Assembly: GCF_014651715.1 (NCBI RefSeq)
Contig: NZ_BMXK01000001.1
Coordinates: forward strand, 372,001 to 436,000
Length of the DNA: 64,000 bases
Origin: Zhihengliuella salsuginis
GTDB taxonomy: Bacteria; Actinomycetota; Actinomycetes; Actinomycetales; Micrococcaceae
Direction of reading: 5' to 3'
Part shown: positions 45,988 to 48,307 of the stretch, in pieces
Position numbering within the stretch: the first letter of the stretch is position 1
Layout of the letters: every line of letters starts with the position of its first letter
Translations under genes and position numbers: made by a program
The notes under the pieces: generated by a model
The model's database searches: none
The model's input: the letters and a program-made list of their open reading frames with translations, nothing else
Told to the model about the DNA's origin: nothing

Positions 45988-46527
45988 CTACGCGCACCAG
46001 CCCACGTGGGCCAGTGCCTGCTTGATGAGATTGCCGCGGCCCCCCGGCAGCTCGGACTGGACGTCCGCGCCCAGCGCGGCGTCCGGGCTCATCCACGTCA
46101 GGTCGAGCGCGTCCCGGCGCGGGTTGCATTCGCCGCGCACGGGGACGATGTAGCAGAGCGCGATCGCGTGCTGGCGCTCGTCCGTCAGGCCGGTCTCCGA
46201 CGGGGACGGGAAGTACTCCGCCACGGTGAAGGGGGCCGGCGACGGCGGCAGCTGCGGCATCGCCATCGGCCCGAGGTCCTGCTCGATGTGCCGGGTGAGC
46301 GCGGCGCGGACCGTCTCCCGGTACATCACCCGGCCGGAGACGAACGCGAACCTGAACTGCGCATCGGCGTCCGCCGTGTACAGGAGGCCGACGTCGGTCA
46401 CGTAGCCCAGCGGGTCCACGCGGACCGGGATCGCCTCCACGTAGGCGATCGGGAGCCGCTGGCGGGCCTCGAAGAGATCCTCGTCTGACAGCCACCCGGG
46501 GTACGGGTCAGGGGTGCGTACGCTCAT
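45988..46527 (-). CDS. DUF4916 / Nudix-like protein with degenerate Nudix box
   Basis: The 179-residue protein has the Nudix fold layout: a first strand with YVEAIPVRVDPLGYVTDVGL (about 28-48) and the Nudix-box region GRVMYRETVRAALTRHIEQD (about 65-84). The canonical box needs G-x5-E-x7-R-E-U-x-E-E; here G, first E and R fit but the next E is His and the E-E pair is Glu-Gln, so metal binding and pyrophosphatase activity are doubtful. DUF4916 proteins are common in actinobacteria with unknown function. The DUF6707-like gene follows in the same operon. A divergent region leads to the drug exporter. Confidence 0.82.
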   Translation of the reverse strand: MSVRTPDPYPGWLSDEDLFEARQRLPIAYVEAIPVRVDPLGYVTDVGLLYTADADAQFRFAFVSGRVMYRETVRAALTRHIEQDLGPMAMPQLPPSPAPFTVAEYFPSPSETGLTDERQHAIALCYIVPVRGECNPRRDALDLTWMSPDAALGADVQSELPGGRGNLIKQALAHVGWCA

Positions 46528-46594
46528 ACTCCATGTTTAGCGCATCCGGACCCGAACCGGCACCAGCCGCCCCGAGCGGAACCGAAATGAGTGG

Positions 46595-46623
46595 TTGGGG
46601 AATACGAATCGGTGCTCTATTGT
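46595..46623 (+). promoter_or_regulatory. Promoter of the drug exporter leader
   Basis: TTGGGG (46595-46600) and TATTGT (46618-46623) are separated by exactly 17 bases. Transcription would begin at about 46630, giving a leader of about 140 bases before the exporter start, with a short open frame at its very 5' end. Confidence 0.6.
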
Positions 46624-46631
46624 TGAAGGGG

Positions 46632-46664
46632 ATGCGATACCGTGGGTTCCTGCCCGCGCGTTGA
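46632..46664 (+). CDS. Putative 10-residue leader peptide MRYRGFLPAR upstream of drug exporter
   Basis: An ATG 8 bases after the -10 element opens a 10-codon frame ending in TGA, reading MRYRGFLPAR. Its place at or near the predicted transcription start matches the leaderless pattern seen at other genes here. It is followed by hairpins and a terminator-like element directly before the exporter ribosome site. By analogy with leader peptides of antibiotic-inducible genes, ribosome stalling on it could switch on the exporter. No homologue is known to me, and its translation is unproven. Confidence 0.5.
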   Translation: MRYRGFLPAR

Positions 46665-46668
46665 AGCA

Positions 46669-46761
46669 GGGGCGCCGACGCCCCGCGTCGACGATGGCGC
46701 ACCCGTCACCACACCCAGAGGCAACACCCCCGCCGAAGCCGGCCCCCGGCGTCGTATTTTT
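46669..46761 (+). promoter_or_regulatory. Putative transcription attenuator before drug exporter gene
   Basis: Between the short frame and the exporter start are a GGGGCG-CCGA-CGCCCC hairpin (46669-46684), then a GC-rich hairpin GCCGG-CCC-CCGGC (46738-46750) followed by GTCG and the T-run TATTTTT (46755-46761), the shape of an intrinsic terminator. CGACGCC (46676-46682) can instead pair with GGCGTCG (46748-46754), which would break both hairpins. The exporter ribosome site AAGGA starts right after the T-run. These are mutually exclusive structures, as in attenuators. Confidence 0.5.
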
Positions 46762-46771
46762 AAGGACCCCT

Positions 46772-48307
46772 GTGCACAACGAATCCGCACCCGAAACCAC
46801 TGCGCCGCACCCGGTCGCATCGGGTCACGCCCCGAGAGCCGCGCCTCCTGAGAACCAGAAACTCGCGCCCGCCGCGCGGACCACCATCCTGGTCCTCCTG
46901 ATCGCCGCGTTCGTGGTGATCTTGAACGAGACCATCATGAACGTCGCCCTGCCCCGGCTGCAGGAGACCTTCGGCGTGACCGCCGACACCGTGCAGTGGC
47001 TCGTCACCGCCTTCATGCTGACGATGGCCGTGGTCATCCCGACCACCGGCTACCTGCTGCGCCGGCTCTCCATCCGGACCGCGTTCATCCTGGCGATGAG
47101 CCTCTTCTCCGCGGGAACCCTGCTCGCCGCGCTCGCCCCGACCTTCGAAATCCTGTTGGTCGGGCGCGTCATCCAGGCCTCGGGCACGGCCATCATGATG
47201 CCGCTGCTGATGACCACCATCCTGGACATCGTCCCGCCGGCCAAGCGCGGTTCGATGATGGGCAACGTCTCGATCGTCATCTCCGTGGCCCCGGCGATCG
47301 GCCCGACGGTCTCCGGCCTCATCCTGCAGTACCTGCAGTGGCGGATGATCTTCTTCATCGTCCTGCCGATCGCGATCGTCGCGCTCGTCCTCGGCGCCCG
47401 CATGCTCGGCCGCCTCACCGAGGAGACCGAGCAGTCGGCCACGCCGCTGTCCTTCCCGTCCCTGCTGGTCGCGATCCCGGGCTTCGGCCTGCTGGTCTAC
47501 GGCCTCAGCTCCCTCGGCGGCGGCCACGGCGCCGAGCCGGGTGCCGCGGCGACCGGTCCGGGGGCCACGCCGTTCGTGGCGCTGGGCATCGCCGTCGTCG
47601 CCCTGACGGTGTTCACCTTCATGCAGCTGCGCCTGCAGCGGACCGACCGCGCCCTGCTGGACCTGCGCCCGTTCACCTACCGGCCGTTCACCGTCTCCCT
47701 GCTGCTCATGGTCATGGCGATGGTGGCGCTGTTCGGCGTGATCATCCTGCTGCCGATGTACCTGCAGACCGTCCGCGGCCTGGACCCGCTCGGCACCGGC
47801 CTGCTGCTGCTGCCGGGCGGCCTGCTCATGGGCCTGCTGGCCCCGTTCGTCGGCCGCGCGTACGACAGGGTGGGCCCGCGCCCGCTGATGATCCCCGGCG
47901 GCGCGCTCCTGGTCCTCGTGCTCGCCGGCTACACCCAGCTGACCGCCGAGACCCCGGTGTGGCTGCTGGTCGTCGCCCACCTGGTGATGTCGCTGAGCTT
48001 CGCGCTGCTGTTCACACCGGCCTTCACGACCGGTCTGAACCCGCTGCCGCACCACCTGCACTCGCACGGCTCGGCCGTGCTCAGCACGCTGCAGCAGCTC
48101 GGCGGCGCCGCGGGCACGGCCCTGCTGGTGGGCATCATGGCCTCCGGCACGGCCTCGGCGATGGCCTCCGGCGCCCAGGAGCTGGACGCGGCGGTGGAGG
48201 GCTTCCAAGCCGGCTTCCTCACGGCGGCGTTCTTCGCGGTCGCCGTCTTCGTGCTGACGTTCCTGATGCGCAAGCCGGTCTACGAGGAGCTCGCCGACTC
48301 GCACTAG
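46772..48307 (+). CDS. DHA2-family (EmrB/QacA-type) MFS multidrug exporter
   Basis: The 511-residue protein has about 14 membrane helices. Helix 1 carries VVILNETIMNVALPRL (about 48-63), the DHA2 signature with an acidic residue, TAFMLTMAVVIPTTGYLLRR lies near 84-103, and GTAIMMPLL with VAPAIGPTVSGLI (about 141-182) matches motif C of antiporters. It would expel drugs or toxic metabolites with protons. I start at the GTG with AAGGA six bases upstream; an ATG 78 bases earlier is in frame but its extension would cross the T-run through a rare TTA codon. A leader peptide and attenuator precede it; a strong terminator follows. Confidence 0.92.
   Translation: MHNESAPETTAPHPVASGHAPRAAPPENQKLAPAARTTILVLLIAAFVVILNETIMNVALPRLQETFGVTADTVQWLVTAFMLTMAVVIPTTGYLLRRLSIRTAFILAMSLFSAGTLLAALAPTFEILLVGRVIQASGTAIMMPLLMTTILDIVPPAKRGSMMGNVSIVISVAPAIGPTVSGLILQYLQWRMIFFIVLPIAIVALVLGARMLGRLTEETEQSATPLSFPSLLVAIPGFGLLVYGLSSLGGGHGAEPGAAATGPGATPFVALGIAVVALTVFTFMQLRLQRTDRALLDLRPFTYRPFTVSLLLMVMAMVALFGVIILLPMYLQTVRGLDPLGTGLLLLPGGLLMGLLAPFVGRAYDRVGPRPLMIPGGALLVLVLAGYTQLTAETPVWLLVVAHLVMSLSFALLFTPAFTTGLNPLPHHLHSHGSAVLSTLQQLGGAAGTALLVGIMASGTASAMASGAQELDAAVEGFQAGFLTAAFFAVAVFVLTFLMRKPVYEELADSH

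Follow-up and report, generated by a model that had tools for sequence, protein, structure and literature searches.

A putative SigR/SigH-type promoter and a conserved mini-frame start upstream of a DHA2-family exporter gene in Zhihengliuella salsuginis and related actinobacteria

The exporter locus

We analysed a stretch of 64,000 nucleotides from Zhihengliuella salsuginis, here referred to as the window, with focus on a gene predicted to encode an exporter of the DHA2 family and on the sequence directly upstream of it (Table 1). The predicted protein passes the NCBIfam model for the wider DHA2 family, TIGR00711, with 312 bits (cut-off 230), scores 184 bits against MFS_1, and its 300 bits against the LmrB model NF000060 are below the curated NCBIfam cut-off of 800. 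The exporter is present in all five genomes of the genus that were examined, the four others being 91, 91, 86 and 77% identical to that of the window. The divergent neighbour codes for a DUF4916 protein (Pfam 262 bits, with a weak NUDIX match) and, as judged by eye, its start region is also located 5' of the exporter in the congeners and at several Paeniglutamicibacter and Glutamicibacter loci. No Rfam family matched the 64-kb window at gathering thresholds, the tRNA/tmRNA search found none, and the leader had no match in the plasmid collection.

Table 1. Positions of predicted features at the exporter locus, numbered from the first nucleotide of the window
Feature	Position	Strand	Basis and remarks
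DUF4916 gene, divergent neighbour	45988-46527	-	Pfam match
TTGGGG / TATTGT (N17 spacing), possible overlapping housekeeping promoter	46595-46600 / 46618-46623	+	Present; below the sigma-70 scan threshold
GGAAT, -35 element of putative SigR/SigH-type promoter	46599..46603	+	Published GGAAT-N18-19-GTT; same motif 5' of related exporters
GTT, -10 element of putative SigR/SigH-type promoter	46622..46624	+	Spaced 18 nt from GGAAT; GAA follows, as in the SigH consensus of C. glutamicum
Short frame MRYRGFLPAR, ATG..TGA	46632..46664	+	Start codon probably no more than a few nt from the transcription start; conserved part 46632-46646
GC hairpin (hairpin 1)	46669-46684	+	Present in the window sequence
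CGACGCC, complementary to GGCGTCG	46676-46682, 46748-46754	+	Sequence
Terminator-like stem GCCGGCCCCCGGC	46738-46750	+	Present in the window sequence
T-run TATTTTT	46755-46761	+	Begins 4 nt past the stem
AAGGA, likely ribosome site of the exporter	46762..46766	+	Sequence; kept in the congeners
DHA2-family (LmrB-like) exporter gene	46772..48307	+	GTG start, 511 aa; TIGR00711, LmrB NF000060 and MFS_1 scores

A putative promoter of the SigR/SigH type

SigR, an ECF sigma factor of the thiol-oxidative response that can also be induced by antibiotics, is called SigH in mycobacteria and corynebacteria. The published arrangement of SigR promoters is GGAAT-N18-19-GTT (PMC9205884), that of SigH promoters in C. 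glutamicum is gGGAAta-16-19 nt-[C/T]GTTgaa (PMC3489674), and on sequence grounds the exporter promoter is better explained as one of this ECF type than as a sigma-70 promoter. We prefer the SigR/SigH reading because GGAA[TC]-N18/19-GTT recurs upstream of related exporters (see below). Within the genus, the promoter is kept in four of the five genomes (the window, L003, L004 and L005) and lacking in L006. The -10 region of the exporter reads TATTGTT or TATAGTT rather than the usual CGTT, and a housekeeping promoter may therefore overlap.

An earlier note on this DNA, made from the sequence alone, had drawn the promoter as TTGGGG-N17-TATTGT. The motif is there and, as TTGGGG-N17-TATTGT/TATAGT, it is kept in all four promoter-bearing congeners, as would be expected if the gene had an ordinary housekeeping (sigma-70 type) promoter only and the SigR match were due to chance. 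We regard this as very unlikely: a sigma-70 consensus scan of positions 46000-47200 returned no promoter at its threshold, and the SigR-type motif, with its spacing, recurs across related exporters.

Presence of the motif upstream of related exporters

The first set of loci comprised the best 80 exporter relatives found in named genomes and the five of the genus; L031 was left out, its upstream sequence being too short, which gave 84 loci. The strict motif, GGAA[TC]-N17-20-GTT, was sought up to 260 nt upstream of the match, with 20 nt inside the match included. It was found 5' of 39 of the 84 exporters, with 1.9 expected from shuffles and 1 on the reverse strand, and the spacing peaks at 18 (17 loci) and 19 nt (19 loci), no other length between 10 and 30 being represented by more than 3 loci. 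With the loci assigned by record title, these 39 are among the 69 actinobacterial ones, 30 of which are without the strict form, versus none among the 15 proteobacterial loci (Fisher P 2.5e-5); three control segments of the same size inside the gene gave 0, 1 and 0 of 69. A looser form of the motif is present at 59 of the 69 actinobacterial loci (9.1 of 69 expected) and at 1 of the 15 proteobacterial loci.

A class-wide search matched 73 of 296 genomes, and the best 30 of these 73 loci, L002 included, were used as a second set, that is the locus of the window and 29 others, three of which repeat the first set by exact match. With its own locus excluded, 17 of the 29 among these best 30 of 73 have the strict motif (0.27 expected; 0 on the reverse strand), L153, which has a stop in frame and is probably misplaced, being counted as a miss. 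On a tree of the exporters, computed without L010, L017 and L072 (short translations), the strict motif is patchy with 15 changes, compared to a shuffled mean of 27.2 and none of 500 shuffles as low, and eight sister-clade rows are without it. Since related species were counted separately, the counts overstate the independence of the loci; the narrow peak in spacing and the result of the second set speak against a chance occurrence. That a promoter which, by its sequence, would be of the SigR/SigH type sits on a widespread actinobacterial DHA2 exporter is the better-supported finding of this study. A 5'-proximal hairpin after these promoters gave a weak signal: for the 39 loci the mean z was -0.41, and 9 of them lay below -1.5; in two segments further downstream of the same promoters mean z was +0.54 and -0.02.

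The SigR system in the same genome

The genome of the window carries rsrA (88 bits), which is present in all five congeners, and the gene beside it is sigR (TIGR02947, 360 bits), with a GGGAAT-N18-GTT site directly 5' of it. The SigR-type motif also precedes dnaK, rbpA, msrB, a DsbA-like gene and a quinone-oxidoreductase-like gene (the last named by eye). A non-exhaustive survey of this genome gave 15 hits of the motif, some of them before no recognisable target, and 2 hits of a reversed control pattern; several of the remaining sites look like chance. For a luciferase-like oxidoreductase gene (named by eye; L097, L125, L126 and L131) we noted that the 18-nt spacer of its SigR-type promoter is almost identical in four congeners; together with the largely invariant spacer of the exporter promoter (see Discussion), this hints at an additional DNA-level constraint at some promoters that, by sequence, would be of the SigR type.

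A conserved frame start close to the predicted transcription start

The short frame, which the earlier note had placed at the likely start of transcription 5' of the DHA2 (LmrB-like) exporter gene, is supported by the comparison with the congeners. It reads MRYRGFLPAR in the window, MRYRELLRA in two species and MRYRE in one, such that Arg-x-Arg (M-R-Y-R) is present in all four frames; the first four codons are kept in four of the five congeners, conservation ends after codon 5, and neither the rest of the frame nor its length is conserved. Of the 15 positions that begin with the ATG, 14 are invariant across the four species, whereas this holds for 109 of 281 fourfold sites in the exporter gene. 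The corresponding binomial figure of about 2e-5 is a guide only, as the block was picked with the data already in view. Conservation is interrupted by the 6-7 nt that separate the promoter block from the ATG, which marks the ATG block as a separate unit, and the distance between the two blocks varies by 1 nt. In four of the five genomes of the genus, conservation of the promoter block and of the 15 nt that begin with the ATG goes beyond chance. Of 245 family genomes, taken from a larger group and searched by pattern, four contain the promoter-plus-ATG block, all in this genus, and the 13-mer ATGCGATACCGTG is present as a single copy in four of the five genus genomes, with no further occurrence in them.

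In the four congeners the ATG of the exporter leader is located 7 or 8 nt after GTT, and transcription thus probably starts at or just before it. Having its ATG where transcription should begin, the MRYR frame would probably be leaderless; for translation in mycobacteria, no more than an ATG at the 5' end is needed (PMC4633059). Among the 39 exporter promoters of the SigR type, 11 have an ATG or GTG 5-10 nt after GTT, with MRYR being read in the four congeners only. In the genus, the DsbA-like (4 genomes) and quinone-oxidoreductase-like (5 genomes) genes start with an ATG 9 nt after GTT, cases that prove existence and not frequency, since the search for them required an ATG 5-10 nt after GTT. 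We also noted an ATG 7 nt after a SigR-type GTT in rbpA leaders (L098, L132 and L136), where the mini-frame MS is identical in three species, and in a dnaK leader (L093) with the mini-frame MKLE. Such a start-site ATG is seen in the rbpA and dnaK leaders of the window's own genome (MS and MKLE, respectively), so this feature is not specific for the exporter, and it may be a more general trait of leadered SigR targets.

Hairpins in the leader

According to the earlier note, a GC hairpin, a terminator-like hairpin with its T-run and an antiterminator pairing of CGACGCC with GGCGTCG would together constitute a switch for ribosome-mediated transcription attenuation. Inspection of the sequence confirmed every motif of the note at its coordinates, so all the pieces exist in the window, and a scan for terminator-like sites (46000-47200, both strands) returned two, one of which is the hairpin in question (0.4, sd 0.6, expected from shuffles). 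In addition, the segment GGCGTCGT (46748-46755), shortly 5' of the ribosome site, is by eye retained throughout the five congeners, also in the one that has no mini-frame. On the other side, neither hairpin 1 nor the CGACGCC arm has an equivalent in L003, L004 and L005, the three congeners that keep promoter and frame, the arm being seen in the window species only. At the T-run site the window has GTATTTTT and two relatives have GTACTTTT, while GTTAGTG is found in a further relative and GTACGTT in L006, which leaves two of the five congeners without a T-run.

Folding points in the same direction as conservation: the 161-nt leader has a z of -1.37, with 23 of 200 shuffles equally or more stable, and among eight leader segments none folds clearly better than its shuffles (lowest z -0.83). 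A predicted pairing between GCGATACC and GGCGTCGT has a core probability above 0.5 in two of four leaders and near 0 in the other two. With helices and T-run not conserved and folds no better than those of shuffles, the terminator/antiterminator model is without support and we rejected it; that attenuation of this kind operates here is extremely unlikely, and the motifs are weak evidence for it. Of the features whose lack of conservation in relatives the earlier note had named as refuting its reading, the helices are indeed not conserved, whereas the start of the frame is. Hence, the earlier note had identified a real leader with a real, conserved frame start, but its promoter class is unlikely and its switch is missing in the relatives.

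Discussion

Taken together, it is quite likely that the exporter is a SigR target transcribed from GGAAT-N18-GTT and that its mRNA opens with the MRYR mini-frame. Oxidants, or translation inhibitors as in Streptomyces, would raise the level of free SigR, and RNA polymerase carrying SigR would start from GGAAT-N18-GTT, so that the exporter mRNA would carry a leader of about 140 nt. Within the genus this start would be at or within a few bases of the ATG, and the mRNA would consequently open with a leaderless M-R-Y-R-(G/E) mini-frame.

What the conserved start block does can be understood in more than one way. M-R-x-R is a known macrolide/ketolide stalling context, which makes a drug-sensing leaderless uORF possible on sequence grounds, and an operator or a start-site element would explain the conservation equally well. 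In the uORF reading, which would add to SigR control, a ribosome carrying a macrolide or ketolide would stall on M-R-Y, with Arg entering, at the 5' end of the mRNA, and exporter output would rise through protection of the mRNA or through less premature (e.g. Rho-dependent) termination. Telithromycin-bound ribosomes stall most often at Arg-x-Arg, a context also discussed for short MRLR peptides, and for ErmDL the Arg-x-Arg motif matters less with erythromycin (PMC8298421). The uORF is consistent with conservation that begins at the ATG, after an unconserved gap, and does not extend past codon 5, which would be compatible with a peptide sensor, with the sufficiency of a 5'-end ATG in mycobacteria, and with the rarity of the context, only 22 of the 1154 ATGs of the window preceding [RK]-x-[RK]. 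Moreover, the Arg codons of the mini-frame, CGA and CGT, are both absent among the 21 Arg codons of the exporter itself, and the leaders contain 45 nt that are rich in C (19-25) and poor in G (9-10). Nevertheless, we consider such a uORF unlikely, as the conserved block has no synonymous change that would mark it as coding, there is no conserved structure to switch, and the frame is absent from L006 and from the other genera searched. Stalling at M-R-Y-R is furthermore predicted by analogy, its middle residue being Tyr whereas the published short peptide is MRLR, and the ATGs at the rbpA and dnaK start sites come with other mini-frames.

Alternatively, start block and promoter spacer together might bind a repressor or activator at a DNA site overlapping the promoter, with the mini-frame being incidental, a reading we hold as a tentative possibility. 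In its favour, 13 of the 18 positions of the exporter promoter spacer are invariant in the four species, while by eye the spacer varies freely within the genus in the SigR-type promoters of the DsbA-like and quinone-oxidoreductase-like genes, and inverted repeats are seen by eye near the exporter promoters of L006 and of Glutamicibacter relatives. The 1-nt change in the distance between the two blocks, the lack of a clear inverted repeat within the block (by eye) and the absence of the 13-mer from elsewhere in the genus genomes are less easily reconciled with it. A stress-sigma promoter and a leaderless M-R-x-R mini-frame could also act in combination, in which case the sigma factor would report thiol or translation stress and macrolide-stalled ribosomes on the first codons the drug itself, with no hairpin switch; to us this appears quite unlikely.

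Returning to SigR control, the exporter promoter resembles members of the SigR regulon of Streptomyces coelicolor and the SigH regulons of Corynebacterium and Mycobacterium in its GGAAT-N18-19-GTT arrangement and in the presence, in the same genome, of a sigR-rsrA pair and targets of the dnaK/rbpA/msrB type; it differs in that a DHA2 exporter is here, by sequence, a widespread candidate target. In C. glutamicum, deletion of the anti-sigma gene raises the MFS permease cg1288, which may or may not be an ortholog of the exporter, 3.94-fold (PMC3489674). The SigR regulon of S. coelicolor is induced by antibiotics that inhibit translation, and SigR confers resistance to them, in a report whose text contains neither the word efflux nor the word transporter (PMC4921905). 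For M. abscessus, loss of sigH has been described to result in hypersensitivity to several drugs and in lower expression of ABC-type transporter genes (PMC13340314), and loss of the anti-sigma factor in multidrug tolerance (PMC11619451). Among the matches listed in a search of the open-licence literature on SigR/SigH together with efflux or exporters, a SigR promoter on this exporter family was not apparent. A DHA2 exporter with a SigR-type promoter across actinobacterial families would be a direct and easily tested candidate effector of SigR antibiotic resistance.

The window exporter shares the DHA2 fold and a 300-bit match to the LmrB model with the LmrB lincomycin exporters, but falls short of the 800-bit cut-off of that model. 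Polycysteine attenuators are among the leaderless short ORFs of mycobacteria. Such ORFs resemble the window frame in having an ATG at the predicted 5' end and few codons (PMC4633059), although the latter has no run of one sensed amino acid. As in ErmDL and the short MRLR macrolide leader peptides, Arg-x-Arg follows right after the start and a gene of a drug-export family lies downstream; unlike these, the window frame is predicted to be leaderless, has Tyr in the middle and is without a conserved terminator or ribosome-site switch. The uORF attenuators of whiB7/wblC also consist of a short frame before an antibiotic-response gene in an actinobacterium (PMC13236596), whereas the window leader has no conserved terminator hairpin and is followed by the exporter itself and not by a regulator. 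Should the predicted leaderless MRYR frame be functional, it would be an unusually short drug-sensing leader.

At L006 (reverse complement), L012 and L014, inverted repeats such as CTGATTGA..TCAATCAG or TGATTGGG..CCCAATCA are by eye found in place of the SigR-type promoter, which may reflect a switch to repressor control. Finally, in the exporter leaders of Pseudoclavibacter (L021, L023 and L030) we noted by eye an inverted repeat like GTGCGGGC-GT-GCCCGCAC approximately 10 nt after the SigR-type GTT.
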